The notes under the pieces were generated by a model. It was given only the letters and a program-made list of their open reading frames with translations. It made no database searches and had not been told where the DNA came from. A stretch of 64,000 nt of DNA from Tilletiopsis washingtonensis. Its lineage: Eukaryota > Basidiomycota > Exobasidiomycetes > Entylomatales. Each line of letters begins with the position of its first letter. Position 1 is the stretch's first letter. The DNA is taken from the NCBI RefSeq assembly GCF_003144115.1, contig NW_020312014.1, forward strand, positions 1-64,000, read 5' to 3'. Shown in pieces: positions 12,856-57,000 of the stretch. The position numbers and the translations under genes are program-made.

Positions 12856-15800
12856 ATGCCCGACTCCTCGCCGCTCGCCGGCGCGTCCAGCTCGTCGCGT
12901 CTCGCCGCACGCCTCTCGCAGCTCCGGCGTCCGCTGCTCGTCGTCGCTGCCGCTGCTGCTGGGCCGTCTGCGCCGTGCTCGCCTTCCACCCGGACGCCCG
13001 CCTCCTCGCAGCCGCCGTCGCCGCGCTTCAAGCCGCCGCGCACGCCGCGCACGCGCGACCGCCTCAACATGGTCGGCCACAACCTGCACAGCGCATTCCG
13101 CAGCTGGTTCAAGGATGTGAGTGGGCGCTGGCATGTAGTCGCTGCGCAGCGCTAACAGTGCTGTTCAGACTGAGGAAGATGGCACGCCGCTGCTGCCTGC
13201 AGCGCTGTCAAAGAAGTACACGGTGCTGCCGCGCGTGCTGGGCCAGGGCAGCTTTGCCGTCGTCAAGGCGTGCGTCGAGCGCGCCACGGGCACAGAGCGC
13301 GCGCTCAAGATCATCGCCAAGCGCCCGTTGAAGGACAGCAACGAGAAGATGCTCGAGGAGGAGATTGCCATCCTGGGCAAGGTGGAGGAGGCGCACGTGT
13401 GAGTCGCAGTGGTCGTAGGTGCCCGCGTGCGGAGCTGAGACCTGCTGCAGCATCAAGATGTGGGACCTCTACGAGACGAAGGAGGTGCGTGACGTTGCTA
13501 GGCTCCTGCATGTCCGGCACTGACGAGGCCGTCGCAGGGAGTCTTCATCGTGACGGATCTCTGCCGCGGCGGCGAGCTCTTCGACCGGCTGGTGCGTGCT
13601 GCAAGGCCGCCCGCCGCTGGCCGCACTGACAGCCCCTCCCTCCAGGTCGAGAAGGTGCACTACAACGAGCTCGACGCACGGCACATTGTACGGCAAATAT
13701 TCCAGGGCGTGGCGTACCTGCACGCCCACGACATCATCCACCGCGACCTCAAGCCCGAGAACATCCTGCTGCGCGACGCCGGCGAGCCGTCTGACGTGGG
13801 TGCTGGCCGCTGCGTATCCTCTGATCGCGCTGACCTCGGCCGTGCAGATTGTCATCTCCGACTTTGGCCTGTCGCGTTTCATTCCCGACGAGGGCCTGCT
13901 GATGACGGCCTGCGGAAGCCCGCAATACGTTGCGCCCGTGAGTGTCGACGCCGCACCGCAGACTCGCCGCGCTGACCCCGCTCGTAGGAGGTGCTGCTCG
14001 GCAAGGGCTACGGCCCGCCGGTCGACATTTGGAGCGCCGGCGTCATTGCCTACTGCCTGCTCGCCGGCTACACGCCTTTCTACGGCGAGGACCAGCCGTC
14101 GCTGTTCCAGCAGATCATCGGCATGCACGTCGAGTTCGAAGAGCAGTACTGGAGCGACATCTCGCAGGGCGCCAGGGACTTCATCCTGCGCTGCCTCTGC
14201 CCCGCCGAGCAGCGCCTCACGGCCGCGCAGGCGCTGCAACATCCGTGGCTCAGCAACCTGCCTACGATTTCGCACGACACGCCCGACGAGCACCGCGGCG
14301 CCTGCCTCAAGGAGGTCGCCAAGCGGCACTCGACGTCGAAGCAGAAGTTCGGCCGCGCCGTCACGGCCGTCGAGACGGTGGCGTACCTGCGCAAGCTGCA
14401 CACGCTGCGGCAGCAGCACTCGCACCCGGACATGCATCCCGAGAAGCTGCACAGCCTGCTGCGCGTCGCCACTGCCATCGACATCAACACCGAGGGCCAG
14501 GCCGTCGTCAACCCGCACGCGACGGCGGAGCAGGCGCGCGACGCGCAGATGCTCATCGACAAGGCGTCGTCAAAGACGCTGACGCCCGAGCCGTCGCGCG
14601 ACTCGTCGCTGCTGGACGAGAAGCGCAGTCACGGGCAGCGCGCGCCGTCGCGCATGGACGTCGAGCTGTGCATCATGGGTGGCACAGCACCGACGCGCGG
14701 CAGCGGCGGCGGCGGCACGAGTGCTGCCGCAGCCGCTGCCGAGGCCACGTCTCACGGCGAGAACCCGGCCGGCAACTCGCTGGGCCGGCCAGTGGAGGAC
14801 GCAGAGGCTGGCAAGCAGGGCGGCGCGCCGGACAGTCCTGCGCGGTCCGCATCGGGCCTGTCCGACACGACCCTCAAGCCATCGGGCCGCAGCAGTGCCG
14901 CCAAGCAGGCCAGCGCCGCGCCGACCAAGGAGTCGACGCTCGACGCGCTGCTCGACCAGTACAAGTCGAGCGCGCTGCCGTCGTCGGCGCGCGTCGACCC
15001 GCACGCGCCGCTCACGCAGCCCGAGGGCATGAGCCTGTCCAAGGCGTGGCGCTACGTGCCCTTTCTCTTCAACCAGGGCATCTCGATTGGCAGCGCAATC
15101 GCCTCGCACGCCATGTACGGGCCGCTGAAGAAGAGCTGGGGCCTCGAGATGACGATCTTCACGCGCATCATCCGCGAGACGGCGCGCTACTCGGAGTTTG
15201 CCACGATCTCGGGCCTGCAGAACTTCTTTGAGATCAGCAACTTCCTGCCCGTGCCCAAGGACGGCCTCATCACGCCCGTGACGTTCCGCGTCAAGAAGCG
15301 CGGCCTGCGCGGCCTGCTCGCCGAGGCCGACGCGGCCGAGGACGGCAAGCGCGAGCTGACGGGCGAGTGGGTCGTCGGCAAGCAGACGTGGCGCCGCCTG
15401 CAGGCCGAGTGGCGCACGGGCAAGAGCCGCGACAAGGAGCGCGTCATTCTCTACATCCACGGCGGCGCGTACTTTATCATGTCGGCCGTGACGCACCGGC
15501 CGGTGACGATCTCGCTGTCCAAGTACACCGAGTGCCGCGTGTTTGGCATCAACTACCGCCTGGCGCCCGGCTGCCAGTTCCCGGGCCCGCTGCACGACGT
15601 CGTCTCGTCCTGGTTCCGCCTCGTCGACGACCTCGGCATCCCACCGGGCAACATCGTGCTCGGTGCCGACTCGGCCGGCGGCGGCCTGGCGCTGGCGCTG
15701 ATGTACTACCTGCGCGACAACAAGTACGACCTGCCCGCCGGCGCGATTCTGTTCAGCGTGAGTTGCATCGCGTCGCGTCGTGACCACATGCTGATGCCTC

Positions 15801-17010
15801 GCGCAGCCCTGGGTCGACCTGACCATGTCGTGCGACTCGTGGGAGACGAATGCCGAGTTCGACTATCTGCCGCAGATGACCAGTGGCAACCACATGGACC
15901 CGGTGCGCGCGTATCTCGGCGACAACATCGACAAGTACATCACGCATCCGTACGCGAGCCGTGAGTCATGCGCCAGCTTGCTGTGTCCGCATTACTGACC
16001 CCTGCCCAGCGCTCTTCGGCGACATGCACGGCCTGCCGCCGCTGCTCATCCAGTGCGGCGACGCCGAGGTGCTGCGCGACGAGTGCACGCTGCTCGCACA
16101 CAAGGCGTCGCTCTCGGGCGTCGCCGTGCGCCACGAGCTGTACGAGGACTGCGTGCACGTGTTCCAGGCATTCCTCTTCCTCGACGCCTCGCGCAAGGCG
16201 CTGCAGTCCGCACGGCACTTTGTGCGCACCGCACTCGACAAGCGCGGCCGCCGCAAGGCCGAGCAGCGCGAGGGCAGTCGCAAGGACGTCGACGCCGAGA
16301 TGCGCGCCGGCATGCAAAACGAAAAGGGCGAGCGCGTCGAGCCGCGCACCGGCCGGACACCCGGGCCGGGCGACCGCGAGGGCGCCGACTCGGACACCGA
16401 GACGATGGGCCAGGGCTCGAGCACAATGGACGGCAACGCCGCCGACGAGCGCAGCGACGACGACTGGTCCGAGTTCGAGGGGCGCCTCAAGCAGGGCGTG
16501 GCCAAGACGGCCAACGCGCCGGCCAAGCTCGCCGCCAAGGCGCTGGGCGTCGACGACGAGGACGTCACGCGCCAGCAGGCCAACGCCGGCGAGGGCTCGA
16601 GCCGCGCGAGCGAGAAGCGCGCCTCTGCCTCGTCGAGCGAGATGCGCCGCAGCCAGAGCCAGCCGTCGGACGCGCCCTCGATCACGCCGACCTCGCCGCT
16701 GGCCAGCGGCAGCACCGCCGCAGCATCGCCCGCACCGGGCAGCGCGCGCAAGCACCGGCGCAACCTCTCCAACACGTCGGGCGTCACGCCGTACTCGCTC
16801 TCGGCGGCGCGCGAGCGCGCCGAGGCGGGCATGAAGCAGCAGGAGTCGGCGGCGCAGGCACACAACCTCGCGCGCTTCCACGACCCGGCGCAGGCGCTCA
16901 AGCCCAAGATGCGGCGCACGGCGAGCAACGCCGCCATCGATGGGCTGCTGCAGTCGTTCGAGACGGACCCCAAGGCTGTGCGCACGCGCGTCTTTACGCC
17001 GGGAGAGTAG
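12856..17010 (+). CDS. CaMK-type protein kinase continuous with an alpha/beta-hydrolase
   Basis: Nine exons: 12856-13116, 13169-13398, 13451-13484, 13538-13591, 13646-13795, 13848-13937, 13988-15757, 15807-15960, 16010-17010; 1247 aa. The kinase spans about residues 100-367: glycine loop LGQGSFAVVKA, VAIK-type lysine in RALKIIAK, HRDLKPEN (catalytic Asp227), DFG at 248, and P-E at 273-274. A CaMKI-like autoinhibitory/calmodulin-binding segment follows (SKQKFGRAVTAVETVAYL). After a Ser/Ala-rich linker, an HSL-type (PF07859-like) hydrolase carries HGGAYF at 764, GADSAGGG with nucleophile Ser835, Asp932 in CGDAEVLRDE, and His964 in DCVHVFQ. A roughly 260-residue disordered tail ends the protein. 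Exon 7 (1770 nt) holds the C-lobe, linker and most of the hydrolase with no stop. Likely roles are calcium signalling and lipid or ester hydrolysis; a link between them is inference. Confidence 0.85.
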
Positions 17011-20800: not shown

Positions 20801-22785
20801 CGCGGGCCCCAGCCATGCGGCGACGCTCGACTGGGCCGTGCCGCCGAGCCACTTCCTCGCGCAGCAGGGCGCCTTCAAGCCGCGCCGCGAGGCGTCGCCG
20901 CCGCCGCTGCCGGCACATGCGCTGCCGCTCGCCGAGCTGGCGCAGGCGCTGCCCGCCGGCATGCCCGCCGCTGCGCTGCTCGGCCCCACGCCGCTGCGTG
21001 CGGCGCCCGCCGACGGTGCCATGCCCGACACGAGCACGGTGAGTCGTGCAATGGCCGCCTCTGCGTACACACCGAGCTCACGTCACACCAGGTCGCCGCA
21101 GCCGACTTCGACGTCGACGTGCTCAGCGGCTTCCTGCCGCCCGAGGCACCGCTGCGCCGCCTCGGCGGCGAGTACGAGGCGTGGGAGGAGCTGCTCGACG
21201 CCGCCCAGCGCCTGCCGCTCATGCAGGGCGCCGGTGGCGCCGCCGTCGATGCCACGCAGCGCCGTGCCGCCCGCGCGTGGCGCCGTAGCATCCGCGAGGT
21301 GAGCCGCGCTGGACCTCTATGACTGGAGCCCATGCTGACGCTGCGCAGCTGCCCGTGCTGCCGCTCTCGCCGCTGCTCCTCGGCGATGTGCGCCACGCGC
21401 GCCGCGCCCACCTAGTCCTCTCCTTCCTCGCACACTTCTACCTGCACTCGCAGCCCGCACCCGCCGTCGGCGCACGCCCGGCGCCGCGCACGTGGCGCAG
21501 CTTCCTGAGCGCCGCACCGTCGCCCGCCGATGCTGCCGACGCCGCCGACGCTGATGCCGAGGCGCGCGGCGTGTACGCCGAGACAGTGCCGGCGCCGCTG
21601 GCCGTGCCGTGGGTGGCCGTGTCGCAGCACCTCGACCTGCCGCCGATCCTCACGTACGCCACGACGGTGCTGTGGAACTGGTACCTCGTCGACGAGGCGC
21701 GCGGCCTCACGCCGGACAACATGCGCATCGCCACGACATTCACCGGCACGCGCTCCGAGGAGCACTTCTACTTTGTCTCGCTGGCCATCGAGCTGCGCGG
21801 CGTCGAGGCGCTCAAGCTGATGCGCGTCAGCCTCGACGAGGCCTTCGTCGCCGACGCGCTGGCGCGCCGGCGCATTGCCGCGTATCTGCGCCGCATTGCC
21901 GCCGTCGTCGACGAGCTGCGTGCGCTGCTGCGCAGCATGAGCGCGCACTGCGACCCGGCCACGTTCTACTGGGGCATCCGCCCCTGGTTCCGCGGCGCCG
22001 ACGGCGGCGGCTGGCACTACGAGGGCGTCGATGCGCCCGGCACGCACCGCCGCCTCACCGGCCCGAGCGCCGGCCAGTCGTCGCTCATCCACGCGCTCGA
22101 CGTCTTCCTCGACGTCGACCACTCGCAGACGAAGCCGCGCGTCAACCGCCCCGTGCCGCCGCTGCGCCGCCGCGGCCCGCCCGCCGCGCCCGCCGACGCT
22201 CACGACGAGGCCGAGGCCGGTGCGACCCAGAACGCCACGTTCATGGAGCGCATGCAGCTGTACATGCCGGGCCACCACCGCGCCTTCCTCACACACCTGC
22301 GCAACCTCTCCTTCGACGACTCGCCCGACGGCCCGCCGGCGCCCGAGCCGACCGAGAGCGACGCCGCGTCGGCGTCAGGAACCTCGGACGACGACGAGGA
22401 TGCGCTGCCGCCGGCGCCGTCTCACCCCATCCGCACGCTGGCGCTGGCCACGCCGCCGGCCGGCAAGCAGGACGGCCTGCGTGCGGCGTACGACGCCGCG
22501 CTCGTCTCGCTGCGCCAGCTGCGCGACGAGCACATGCGCATCGCCACGCTCTACATCATCTCGCAGGCCCGCCGCCCGCCGCCGGCGCAGTACGCCGTCC
22601 TGCCCGCCTCGTTCGCCGGTGCGCCCGCCGCGGCGCCGGCGCTCGAGACGCTTGCCACGCCGCCGCCGGCTGCCGGCGCGCCCAAGGGCACGGGCGGCAC
22701 GGACCTCGTGAGCTTCCTCAAGGAGTGCCGCTCCAACACGCTCGACGCCATGCTCGGCCCCGGCGACTCGCCGCAGCCGCTCTGA
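20748..22785 (+). CDS. BNA2: Indoleamine 2,3-dioxygenase
   Basis: Heme enzyme that opens the tryptophan ring to N-formylkynurenine, the first step of de novo NAD synthesis. Three exons: 20748-21038, 21092-21298, 21349-22785; 644 aa, longer than the usual 400-470. Family landmarks are LSGFLPPEAPLRRLGGEYEA, LPVLPLSPLLLGDVRHARRA, VPWVAVSQHLDLPPILTYA with WNWYLVD, AGQSSLIHALDVFLDVDH, and YMPGHHRAFL, where His476 should be the proximal heme ligand. The extra length is a poly-Ser N terminus, an insertion after residue 205 and an acidic stretch after the heme helix. The adjacent convergent gene is a heme lyase, only 61 bp away; both use heme, but functional coupling is not implied. Confidence 0.88.
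20766..20800 (+). repeat. TCG trinucleotide repeat coding for poly-serine
   Basis: Eleven TCG units plus two bases in the first exon of BNA2, encoding most of a 12-serine run just after the start codon. Likely length-variable between strains. Confidence 0.85.
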
Positions 22786-46497: not shown

Positions 46498-48755
46498 TCA
46501 AGTCTTGACGGGCGACTCATCGGGCGAGACGGGCACGACCTCGACGCGCGGCTGCTGCGCCTGCTCGCCACTCTTGCTCGTCTCCGACTTGTGGTCCTCG
46601 ACCTTGCTGCCCTCTGGTTTCTCCTCTACCGAGCTCTGGCCGTCGCTTGCCGCCTGCTTCTGCTGCTCGCGCTGCTCCTCGAGCTCGCGCTCCTCGAGCG
46701 CATGCAGCGCCGGGTGCTGCGCGTGCGGCACGGTAGGCAGCGTCGACTCGTCGCGGCGCTCCGGCGGCACGAAGACGTCGAACCAGCGCGGCATGCTAAA
46801 GCACAGCACGATCACAACGATCGGAATATGTCCCAGGGCGAAGCCGAGGATGTGCAGCGGGTCGTAGCGCAGCTGGTAGAAGCTCGGGTAGCTGAAGCTG
46901 TAGACGATCGCGAGCACCGGGCCGGAGACGTAGCGCAGCAGCGGGCCCCAGAACGGCGGGATGCTCCAGTTCTTGCCCGTCGCGACGATGCGGTTGAGGT
47001 CGCGGCGCAGCTGGTTGCCCTGGTAGGCGGCCACGTACCAGAAGCGCTCCAGCCACACGTACTTGCCCCAGAAGCTCGGCGGGCGACTGAGCGGCGTCTT
47101 GCCAAGAATCATGGCGGCCAGGCTGCCGAGGATGTAGAGGCCGAAGCCCACGCCTGCTCCGGCTGCCGGAGACACGGCATGCGCGACGGTCACGCCACAG
47201 ATCATGCCTCCAAAGTAGCCGCTGTTGTAGCTTGCGAACGCGGGCAGGCCGACCTCGGTGATCACGTCGCGGTACCGATACACGGACGTGGAGAGCGTCA
47301 CCTCGCAGAATACGACGAACACCAGCGCCACGTCCGAGACCCAGCGATCGACGCCGGTCAGGAGCGCCTCGCCGAACTGCGTGCAGTACGGCAGCGAGAA
47401 GCAGAACGAGACGAGCACGCATGCAGCGACGACGAGCGTGCGGTTCTGGACGCGTCCCGTATCCAGAATCGCCGTGACGACGGCATCAAGCATGGCGAAT
47501 GCCGAGCTGTAGCCGAGCGTCATCAGTGTTGTGAACAGGGCGAAAGCCCAGAAGTTGGCGCCGGGCAGCTGTGCCACGGCCTCGGGCAGCGTGAGGAAGC
47601 CGACGGTAAAGGCGCCGAGCGGCGGCGCGCCGGGCTCGGGGAAGAGCTGCAGGAAGCCCACGACGCCGAACACGGCGAATGCGGCGAAATTCTCGAAGAG
47701 CACGTTGCTTCCAGCAATCAGTAGGCCGTCGACCACGACGTTGCTGAAGCGACTCGAGTACGAGGCGTAGCTGGTGAAGTAGCCGAATCCCACACCGATC
47801 GAGAAGAAGACCTGGGAGCATGCCGTCTGCCAGATGCGACCGTTGGCGAGCTGTTCTCCGCGCCACGTGCCGACGAAGAGCCGGACGCCGTCGACGGCGT
47901 TGGGCAGCGAGCATGCCCGTCCGACGAGGATAATCGTGATCACAATGGGCATGCCCATCGTGAAGTATACGACACGGCCTGTCATGCCTACACCTCGGAA
48001 AATGCTGATGAACACGAGGAAAAACGTGAAGACCGACCATCCAACAGTCTCGCCGATGAAGGCGATGTTCGGGTACTGCGTGTAGCTGAGCACGCTGTTG
48101 CCGGAGGCGGACAGCTCGCCGGCGATCGGCGTTGGGTTCGCCACGACCTCTGCGTAGAAGTCCGGAGCACGGCCGGCCCACGGCAGGGGCGAGATGAACG
48201 AGTTGCGCCAGTACGTCATGACTGCGAGGCGTCAGCACGCGTGCGACAGATGCCGTCGACTGTAGTGCCGGCACTCACTCCAGGCGAGGTTCACGACGAA
48301 ATAGGGAACCACCAGGAAGGCGACCCACAGCATGCCCAGTCCGACGCCGCGCAGGCGCTTGCTGAGCGCGTTGTACGCGACGACGCCTCCCGCGCGGTGT
48401 GCCTGTCCGATCGACAGCTCGAGCATGAGCGTCGGAATGGCGATGAGGATGACGGCCATGAAGTAAGGAATGAACCATGACAGGCCCGCCTGGGCGTTGT
48501 AAACTAGTGATGCAGCAGTCAGCACGTGGCCAATCTGCGCACAGACGCCGCTGCACTGTCCGGAGTGGTCCCGCCATGTCCAGCGCAGGGTGTTCACTCA
48601 CCGACCGACGGATAGCGCAAGAGATTGCCCATGCCTGCGCAGCCCGACATGCTCGCAAGGACGAAGCCGGCGCGCGAAGGCCACACGTCGCGCCCATCGC
48701 TGCCCTTGTCGGCCGTCGGCGCCAGCTTGCGCCCGATGCGGCGGAGGGCGTTCAT
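46498..48755 (-). CDS. Sodium:neurotransmitter symporter (SLC6/SNF) family protein
   Basis: Polytopic membrane transporter with the LeuT fold, expected to move amino acids or related solutes with Na+. Three exons: 48755-48602, 48503-48279, 48221-46498; 700 aa. The protein opens with VWPSRAGFVLASMSGCAGMG and NLLRYPSV, helix 1 of the family, followed by VYNAQAGLSWFIPYFMAV, LELSIGQAHRAGGVVAY and YFVVNLAWIMTYWRNSF. The middle carries SQVFFSIGVGFGYFTSYASY, and ITEVGLPAFASY later. The last 90 residues are a charged Glu/Gln/Lys-rich cytosolic tail ending PVSPDESPVKT. Fungal members exist but have no well-known substrate. The SCD6 gene upstream is on the same strand, about 1 kb away. Confidence 0.88.
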
Positions 48756-54021: not shown

Positions 54022-57000
54022 ATGTTCTCCTACCTGCCCTCGCTCCTCTCCGGCGCATGGCAGCACCTGCCCGCGTATGCGGCCCTCTCCGGCGCACTGC
54101 AGCGGCGCCTGCTGGCCTATCTGCTGCGGCGCGCCCTCGGACGCTTCCTGGCGCCCGGCGCGCTCGATGCCGCCAGCATCGACGCCGCCATCGGTAGTGG
54201 CAGCGTCGAGATTGCCGGTCTGCAGCTGAGTGCCGAGGTGAGTCGCATTGGCCGAGCGGTGAGGGAGTAGGTTGAGCGTGGCTTGGAGGCTGGATACTGG
54301 AGGCACGCACGGATAGCGAGAGGTCGGATTGCTGGTAGCGCTCAAGGTCGGTGCTGGCGTGAACGACCACTCGACGCCAGCGTGCAACTGCAGCGCGAGC
54401 ACAGCTCCTTAGCTTCGGTCCGAGGCAGCCTCTCAGTTCTGACCCAGGCCAAGCACGCTGTGGCGCCGGACGCAGCGCAAGCGCGCCTGGCCGGAAGAAC
54501 GTATTGGCTCTCGCTGACGCTCGCTCTGCCTCTCTTGCCGTCCCTTCCTGCACAGGCCATCAACGAGCTCCTCCCACGCGGTCCGCTGCGCGTGGTCAGC
54601 GGACAGCTGGGCCGCGTCGCAGTGCAGCTGCCCTTCCCAAACCTCTGGAGCGGCGAGCTCAGTCTCTCGCTCTCCGACATCGACGTTCGCGTCGCGCTCG
54701 ACGGCAAAGTATCGCCGCCGGCGTCGCCGTTCGACAGTCCTCGTGCTGGCCGCTCTAGCGCAGGCCTCGAGGAGTCGATCCTCGGCGCTGCAGAGAGCGT
54801 GTTTCATGACACGCTCGAGGGGCAGGAGCTGGAGGAGTCGCTGCAGGCGTCGATGCTAGCCGCAAGCACCGCTGTACCAGGCACGTCAGCTGCTGCAGCT
54901 GCGGCGTCAGAGGCGCCCGCGCCCAGCTCGCTCATCGCCGGCATCGTCGAGGGTCTGCTCGCGCGCCTCAAGGTGTCCGTGCGGCGAGTGACTCTGCATC
55001 TGCAGCACTCGCAGCACCTCTCGGCGGCTGCCGGCGTGCAGCTCGAGTTGCGCATGGAGTCGTTCGACCTTCAATCGGAGGCCTCTGCCCCAGCAGCCTC
55101 GCATCCTGCGGCACTGCAAGACCGCCTCGTGCAAGAAGTCGTGCGCACCGCCCGCGTCGCGGGCATCTCGCTCTGGATGACGCTGCCTGCCGACGCCGCC
55201 TCGCACGAAGCACGCGGCACTCGCCAGGCGCGGTGGAGAGCGGCGAGCTCGAGCGAGTCGGGGAGCTCGGACTCGGACAGCGAGACGAACGAGTACATGG
55301 AGATGAGCTCTGCCATTCCGGATCTGCGACAGAGCAGCATCGCCACTGGCGCGCTTGACGCGAGTCAGGCCAGCGTGTATGCCAGCGCAGAGGACATTCG
55401 AGGCGTCGAGGTCTCCCAGACGAAGAGTCGGCCCGACGCGAGCGCCGACACGCAGGACGTCGACCGTGGGCCTGAGATGCTTTTCTCGCTCGGCAGCGAG
55501 GCAATCGTGGTGCGCTTCGCGACGCTCAAAGAGGTGCCGCGGCCTGCGCCAGACAATTTTGCCTCGCAGAACGAGGAACCCGATGCAGGAGAGGCGCAAG
55601 AGAACGAGACAGTCGTGGCACTGCCAGCCTCGCGGCTGCGCACGTCGCTCAGCGTCGAAGTGGGCGCCGTCGTCGCTTTCGTGCATCCGCGACAGCTTGC
55701 GGCGCTGATGTCGATGGCAGGCGAGCTCGGCTCGGCCTCTAGTCCGCCACGCGACGACGAGCAGCCGACCTCCCTGCCTGCTGCTCGAGCAGCCTTCGAC
55801 GCGTCACTGCGTATCGCTGCACTGCACCTCATCTGCGCGTACGAGTCGCCCAATCAGCTGTCGCCGCCTTCGAAGCGAGCAATGCACGAGTCGCTGCAGG
55901 CCTTTTGGCAGCGGCCGGCACGCATACATCCGGCCGTCGGCCACTTGCGTCTTCGTGTGGAGGGAGTGGAGCTCGATTACGCCGTCGCCGCCTCGTCCGA
56001 GCTCTCGCCTACAGCATGCGTTCTGGTGACGGACGTCGGCGTCTACGAGCACCTCTCGCCCCACCTGGCCAACGGCGATGTCGCGACGGTCTTTCCGATT
56101 CTGTTGCCCGACGCCAACATGCAGGAGCAGTACGCGGTGCCGCTGGCCGGCACGCCCTTGGGCCTCGAGAAGAGACGAGAAGCGCTGGCGCCCTTGGAGC
56201 AAGTCAGTATGGACGCGGCAGACTGGCGTCTCGCGGCCAGCGAGCAGCGCTCCGCTCCATCAGCGACTAGCGAAGCTCCGCGAGCGTCGTCACAGGGCCC
56301 CTACTGGCGCGCCTCGTGGGGCGAACGCGCGTGGAAGGTGCGCCCTCGAGCTCGACGCGCTTCAAGCAGCGTCTCGTCTGCTGCGAAGGAGCTCTTGCGT
56401 CCGGCTGTGCGCGTAAATGTCGTGCTGCTAGTGACTGGAGCCTCGACAACGGTGGAGCTGGCGCCGCTACATGTCTTTGTCGACGTCTCGACGGTCAATC
56501 GCCTCATGCCGTTGGCGCAGTCCGCCAGCGCTGCGCTGCGGCAGAACGTGTGGTCGTCGGCACGCTCGGACATGTCGCAGTCCTTCGCCACGCTGACCGC
56601 ATCGCCCAAGGTCAAGAGCGCGCCGCTGCAAGGAGCCTCGACCTCGACGTCGGCCAGCAGGACCGAGCTGCGCTGTGCCTTGCTGCGCGTGGAGCTGCGC
56701 GTGCCGAGCGCGGCTGCGGGACCTCAAGCGTCCGAGCTTCGGTCTGGCATCCTGATCGTCGATGTTCAGGGCATTGATGCGCGTCTCGGTCCGCCAAGTA
56801 GAGATGTACCGCCGCATCGGTCATCAGTCGGCTTCGCGACTGGCCCGCCGCACACACGGGCGCGTCCTGACGCCGTCGCAGAGGACGGACGCTGCTCGAT
56901 CGCCGCAGTTGTAGCCTTCTTCAAGCCGATCCGAGGTGCGTGTGCAGCTGCAGTATTGAGACGTAGAGACTGACCGGCTGCACTACAGAGGCACGAGCCA

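Follow-up and report, generated by a model that had tools for sequence, protein, structure and literature searches.

Lipid hydrolases of the hormone-sensitive lipase (HSL) kind are well known as substrates of separate kinases, which act on them in trans. The mammalian enzyme, LIPE, is an HSL-type hydrolase under phosphorylation control, on which PKA and AMPK act in trans and which has other regulatory regions than the protein considered here. We describe a locus in the exobasidiomycete fungus Tilletiopsis washingtonensis at which a kinase resembling calcium/calmodulin-dependent protein kinase I (CaMKI) and an HSL-type hydrolase are predicted to form one polypeptide. It lies on the + strand of the first 64,000 nucleotides of contig NW_020312014.1, a stretch that we call the window and to which all positions refer. 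Joined at GT-AG introns, the nine exons of this gene encode 1247 amino acids without a stop. A sequence-only reading of the window had already proposed the fusion. The two domains are ordinary; what is unusual is their union, and its spread across a lineage.

The kinase half shares with CaMKI (human CaMK1D, PDB 2jc6, and kinases of Mucoromycota, Glomeromycotina and chytrids) the kinase domain and an activation loop of the form MTACG[ST]P.YVAPE, and its tail can be aligned with the autoinhibitory/calmodulin (CaM)-binding segment of CaMKI. CaMKI-type kinases are short, stand-alone proteins (about 330-450 amino acids in most entries), whereas the fused protein adds a hydrolase; in addition, the Trp that anchors CaM in CaMKI is Phe or Leu in the fused proteins. 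The hydrolase half has the Abhydrolase_3 fold, HGG[AG], G-x-S-x-G, acid and His of the HSL-type family IV esterases (Est8, 6y9k; E40, 4xvc; EstD11, 7at0), but these are bacterial-type enzymes of about 300 amino acids, lacking the kinase, the linker and the long tail. Stand-alone basidiomycete orthologues, such as those of Gloeophyllum (P0078) and Microbotryum (P0069), belong to the same hydrolase family and have a long C-terminal tail, but no kinase domain. The closest unfused homologues of both halves are found in Tilletia, where they are two genes.

Pfam profiles place Pkinase at residues 109-361 (E 5.1e-71) and Abhydrolase_3 at residues 760-967 (E 9.1e-43, 146.9 bits) of the 1247-residue protein, the pair of matches by which the sequence-only reading had proposed to check itself. 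The best PDB match of the kinase half is human CaMK1D (E 2.6e-75), followed by CaMK1, and the alignment with CaMK1D does not stop at the kinase domain but takes in the CaMKI tail as well. The domain is complete: the glycine loop GQGSFAVVKA and the ATP lysine lie in exon 2 (13169-13398), HRDLKPEN with catalytic Asp227 (13745-13747) in exon 5 (13646-13795), and DFG (Asp248, 13860-13862) with the activation loop LLMTACGSPQYVAP in exon 6 (13848-13937); the APE motif is also present. A Thr in LLMTACGSPQYVAPE aligns with the activation-loop Thr of CaMKI and is predicted to be phosphorylated by an upstream kinase of the CaMKK type. In the PDB, the hydrolase half comes closest to HSL-type esterases, among them Est8 and E40, at about E 5e-46 to 8e-46. 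PF10340, the steryl acetyl hydrolase family of yeast Say1 and fission yeast Mug180, neither of which has a kinase, is a far weaker match than Abhydrolase_3 (41 bits, for a cut-off of 21).

The first part of the hydrolase core (15434-15757) carries the oxyanion motif HGGA (residues 764-767) and the nucleophile Ser835 (15671-15673); by alignment, the triad is completed by Asp932 (16060-16062) and His964 (16156-16158). HGGA and Ser are kept in all 121 aligned hydrolase rows. As the acid, 104 of them have Asp and 15 (all without kinase) have Glu, with a gap in two; His is present in 118, and the three gaps are due to rows that were cut or truncated. The predicted enzyme is a carboxylester hydrolase of the bacterial-HSL kind (family IV, Abhydrolase_3), which would act on an ester or lipid substrate. 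The CaMKI-like kinase and the HSL-type hydrolase with an intact Ser-Asp-His triad both stand as first proposed and, at the level of motifs, both catalytic sites look functional.

Are the two halves really encoded in one frame? Exon 7 (13988-15757) runs from the kinase C-lobe through the tail, the linker and the hydrolase N-terminal region into most of the hydrolase core, and its 1770 nucleotides, or 590 codons, are open throughout, as the sequence-only reading had stated. That reading had also seen no GTGAGT, GTGCGT or GTAAGT donor between about 14560 and 15030, and we likewise found no GT[AG]NG[TC] there, which speaks against a cryptic intron separating kinase and hydrolase. The window is GC-rich, and when we simulated 2000 linkers of 186 codons with the dinucleotide make-up preserved, 494 (about a quarter) were open in the given frame, so an open linker is by itself weak evidence. 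Two other features argue that the linker (residues 433-590, 14465-14938) is coding. Its GC content shows coding periodicity (0.89-0.91 at third positions versus 0.59-0.63 at second positions), and it contains protein blocks conserved in 37 relatives. These blocks were defined in an alignment of the window's protein with 37 fused proteins from outside Malassezia, in which mean identity is 0.80 for the kinase and 0.88 for the hydrolase core. The linker is variable, yet conserved blocks stand out around residues 494-508, 516-534 (GT.A.A.A...T..G, 14714-14770), 555-571 (SP..S....S..T..P, 14831-14881) and 589-599. The spacing from HRD to HGGA is 509-642 residues across fused relatives and 539 in the window. 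We had considered the linker serines as CaMK sites, and dropped them: the SP, Ser565, Thr568 and Pro571 are conserved but the window's Arg559 is not.

Is this architecture peculiar to one genome? We searched with the hydrolase half and compared the best 120 of 324 proteins, all of them predicted, taking domains from Pfam. Pkinase and Abhydrolase_3 occur together in 61 of these 120; apart from one fern record, the named ones represent 14 genera: Ceraceosorus, Exobasidium, Meira, Jaminaea, Pseudozyma, Moesziomyces, Kalmanozyma, Ustilago, Melanopsichium, Sporisorium, Tilletiaria, Testicularia, Thecaphora and Malassezia. None of the other 59 has a kinase domain; seven are from Tilletia, and the named ones among the remaining 52 are from Pucciniomycotina and Agaricomycotina. 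Among the named proteins in the best 120 of 7814 and the best 120 of 7965 matches, we found no stand-alone kinase orthologue in other Basidiomycota. Judging from these comparisons, the fusion is old and lineage-wide in Ustilaginomycotina rather than an oddity of a single species. The prospect that orthologues would always prove to be two genes does not hold, even though Tilletia does have two. An artefact of assembly or annotation is hardly credible, being contradicted by independent records from many species. In the window genome itself, neither half has a second close copy: the next best copy of the kinase half reaches only 41%, and other matches of the hydrolase half are short and partial (E 1.5e-8 or weaker).

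A few records in these searches are irregular. P0063, from a fern (Adiantum nelumboides), is a truncated smut-type fusion and probably fungal contamination. Three proteins of the mushroom group (P0081, P0109 and P0120) join the same hydrolase to a Peptidase_M24/methionine aminopeptidase domain, and Pseudohyphozyma P0071 joins it to CLN3; each may be a fusion or a merged gene model. P0126, a kinase-only protein of 786 amino acids, has a fused-type linker and an Arg-rich end without Pfam match, which suggests a fused gene with a frame error.

That the locus produces two proteins, through an internal promoter, a poly(A) site or cleavage, so that the fusion exists on paper only, is very unlikely in our estimation. 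Such an arrangement would suit the two-gene state of Tilletia, and merged gene models are met with, as in some non-smut records in which Peptidase_M24 or CLN3 is joined to the hydrolase. It has to contend, however, with the absence of any stop or usual donor between the halves, with the periodicity and the conserved blocks of the linker, with the same architecture in 14 named genera, and with the inactive kinase halves, described below, that are still in frame. A single translated chain is well supported by the sequence comparisons.

If the chain is single, how might one half act on the other? The kinase domain is followed at residues 381-414 (14309-14410) by a segment that aligns with the autoinhibitory/CaM-binding tail of CaMK1D and is conserved in the 37 fusions outside Malassezia. 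This conservation suggests calcium/calmodulin gating. The sequence-only reading had spoken of a CaM-binding-like tail; its homology with the CaMKI tail is upheld by the alignment, whereas the anchor residue differs and binding is putative.

A candidate target lies at the other end of the protein. The CaMKI consensus is hyd-x-R-x-x-S/T-x-x-x-hyd, where hyd is a hydrophobic residue. Near the C-terminus of fused proteins, a short helix of the L..[YFW] type is directly preceded by a motif M[RK]R..S...[IVL], which in the window reads MRRTASNAAI (16909-16938) around Ser1220 (16924-16926) and was recognised by comparing tails. We counted this strict pattern, and a loose one (R..S/T), at the homologous place in the window's protein and P0001-P0037 (38 fused tails), as well as in Tilletia, stand-alone and Malassezia-type tails; the fused P0063, P0067, P0072 and P0073 were omitted, as was one short tail. 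Of the 38 fused proteins, 29 have the strict site, compared with 1 of 7 from Tilletia, 2 of 52 that stand alone and 0 of 19 of Malassezia type (fused versus stand-alone, Fisher p 1.7e-13, uncorrected for relatedness), and it arises anywhere in shuffled fused tails at a frequency of 0.046. The loose form is found in 33 of 38, 6 of 7, 29 of 52 and 0 of 19, respectively; an earlier count of it had given 31/37, 5/7, 25/52 and, for Malassezia types, 0/12. In view of the loose site in Tilletia and stand-alone tails, the hydrolase may predate the fusion as a kinase substrate. The best candidate for a substrate in cis is a tail site of the Ser1220 type, whose looser form would be older than the fusion and which fused proteins would have sharpened to the CaMK consensus. 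Of the CaMKI consensus, the hydrophobic P-5 residue is the one element that the part of PMC11172825 used here confirms.

We propose the following mechanism. In an old Ustilaginomycotina fusion of a CaMKI-type Ser/Thr kinase, with its autoinhibitory/CaM-binding-like tail, and a hydrolase, a flexible linker of roughly 160-200 residues would tether the kinase within reach of the hydrolase's disordered C-terminal tail. A calcium/calmodulin signal, possibly with an upstream kinase, would relieve the kinase tail; the tethered kinase would then phosphorylate the C-terminal tail at Ser1220 (hyd-x-R-x-x-S-x-x-x-hyd), and this phosphorylation would set the activity, partner binding or location of the hydrolase. 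AlphaFold models of P0012 and P0062 show both domains well folded, with pTM values of 0.54 and 0.48 that give no support to a fixed domain interface, as would be expected of tethered domains and not of a rigid complex. We lean slightly towards a single bifunctional enzyme whose kinase phosphorylates its own hydrolase in cis and so tunes it. The dependence on calcium/calmodulin, the phosphorylation in cis and its effect are what we infer beyond the single chain.

A number of observations weigh against this proposal. The CaM anchor is not Trp, and the Arg that CaMK sites at the linker serines would need is not conserved. The models of P0012 and P0062 show no fixed arrangement of kinase and hydrolase. 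AMPK/Snf1 shares the CaMKI-type site consensus. The site pattern was chosen after viewing the fused tails, and related species are not independent. Such a site occurs at some position in 20 of 52 stand-alone tails (frequency 0.126 when these are shuffled), none of the 19 Malassezia-type fusions carries the tail site, and several of these have an intact kinase without tail site or recognisable CaM tail. Tilletia manages with two genes. Finally, the fusion is known from predicted proteins only.

Some of these observations would suit a single chain whose kinase mainly targets other proteins, with the hydrolase as an anchor or colocalised partner (for instance at a lipid surface) and no regulation in cis. 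No docking of the domains is predicted, the conserved site also matches the consensus of other kinases, and Malassezia fusions retain kinases in the absence of the site. This explanation, which we regard as rather unlikely, has against it the enrichment of the strict site at a single homologous place in fused tails, and the retention of both fusion and hydrolase where the kinase has lost its catalytic Asp.

Such losses are seen in the Malassezia-type fusions. HRD is kept in 55 of the 61 fused proteins, its Asp is lost in four and the region is missing in two. The four (P0060, P0061, P0062 and P0064) have HMN, HTN or NLN in place of HRD, and three of them also have a changed DFG Gly, while P0065 has DFA with an intact HRD. 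Two of the four fall inside Malassezia in the hydrolase tree, and the hydrolases of the other two share 98-99% identity with that of one of these. All four retain the three triad residues. Among P0060-P0062, kinase halves are 69-82% identical versus 98-99% for hydrolase cores; in a pair with intact kinases (P0042/P0044), the values are 74% and 92%. Asp-less kinase halves diverge fast but remain in frame and recognisable, the three that were scanned still scoring 173-185 bits against Pkinase. Such persistence of dead kinase halves would be expected if the hydrolase, encoded further along this frame, is translated through the kinase.

Could the kinase domain then be a scaffold or allosteric module for which phosphotransfer is dispensable, as in these pseudokinases? 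The Pkinase scores of the HMN, HTN and NLN fusions, and a P0062 model whose kinase matches CaMK1D (E 3.8e-21) and would fold like it, point that way; yet HRD is kept in 55 of 61 fused proteins, and the fast divergence of the dead halves also fits plain decay. We hold this explanation to be improbable.

The loss of the CaM-like tail, of the tail site and, in part, of catalysis would fit a control given up in Malassezia types; those with an intact kinase but no site do not fit it. A fuller scenario can be offered tentatively, at less than even confidence. The smut/Malassezia lineage would have hard-wired a calcium-to-lipolysis switch by fusing a CaM kinase to one of its substrates, an ester hydrolase with a pre-existing basophilic site in its tail. 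This site would later have come to match the whole CaMKI consensus and to be phosphorylated in cis. In part of Malassezia, from which tail site and CaM segment have disappeared, the kinase would be becoming a pseudokinase that is carried in the hydrolase frame.

The Tilletia genes bear on the history of the fusion. They encode a separate kinase of 433-445 amino acids and a separate hydrolase of 984-1110 amino acids, whose locus tags are far apart in T. maclaganii. Compared with profiles of fused linkers, the hydrolase N-termini of Tilletia score above every shuffle in 7 of 7 cases and the kinase C-termini in 3 of 4, versus 0 of 19 for other basidiomycete hydrolase N-termini and 0 of 5 for Malassezia linkers. 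The linker thus looks like a kinase tail followed by a hydrolase head, a resemblance that fits both histories, fission in Tilletia or two genes that were never fused. In the hydrolase tree (two rows of which, P0028 and P0017, are less than half filled because the cutting motif matched early), Tilletia is nested among fused rows with support 80/74, and a single clade of all 29 fused rows is not rejected (approximately unbiased test (AU), p 0.134). In the tree of kinase plus hydrolase, Tilletia groups with Malassezia (88/87), and the AU p for a single fused clade is 0.0923.

The gene model itself calls for one correction. Its eight introns measure 49-54 nucleotides each, with donors GTGAGT, GTGCGT or GTGGGT and AG acceptors. 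Exon 1 (12856-13116) covers residues 1-87, and exon 2, with the kinase N-lobe, is followed by exon 3 (13451-13484) and exon 4 (13538-13591); exon 8 (15807-15960) continues the hydrolase core, and exon 9 (16010-17010) carries Asp932, His964 and the disordered C-terminal tail. Residues 1-71 are weakly conserved (mean identity 0.07 in the alignment with fused relatives), and a conserved start, MVGHxLH..F..WFKD, coincides with Met72 at base 13069. Counted from Met72, HRD is at residue 154, as it is in 12 of the 37 fused relatives outside Malassezia, and the separate Tilletia kinases start with the same sequence. Because of this spacing and these starts, translation probably begins at Met72 rather than at 12856, where the sequence-only reading had placed it; the fused coding region would then span 13069-17010 and encode 1176 amino acids.

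How new is this protein? Fused predicted proteins are already present in databases, where some are labelled 'related to calmodulin-dependent protein kinase' or 'serine/threonine protein kinase/acetyl esterase/lipase', and we found no functional description of the fusion in the open-access literature. A 2010 survey of fungal kinomes (PMC2838846) covers the Pfam domains of U. maydis and M. globosa kinases; the words 'hydrolase' and 'lipase' are absent from its main text. In an expression table of PMC10532341, Ustilago maydis UMAG_06274 is labelled 'related to hormone-sensitive lipase', an entry that may or may not be the fused gene. What our comparisons add are the conserved linker blocks outside Malassezia, the putative C-terminal site of CaMKI/AMPK type and the Asp-less Malassezia-type halves kept in frame. 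Should the proposal be correct, the fusion would be a natural single-molecule version of the control that kinases exert in trans on HSL-type hydrolases, in a subphylum that includes oil-producing yeasts, plant smuts and lipid-dependent skin yeasts. The two genes of Tilletia and the pseudokinases of Malassezia type offer natural comparisons for the effect of the kinase on the hydrolase.

Elsewhere in the window, we noted a gene of the indoleamine 2,3-dioxygenase family at 21289-22782 on the + strand (PF01231, E 3.6e-103), an open frame at 46501-48231 on the - strand with a match to the sodium:neurotransmitter symporter family (PF00209, E 2.1e-46), and a match to an ATG2-type autophagy protein (PF13329, E 4.6e-25) at 54271-56970 on the + strand.

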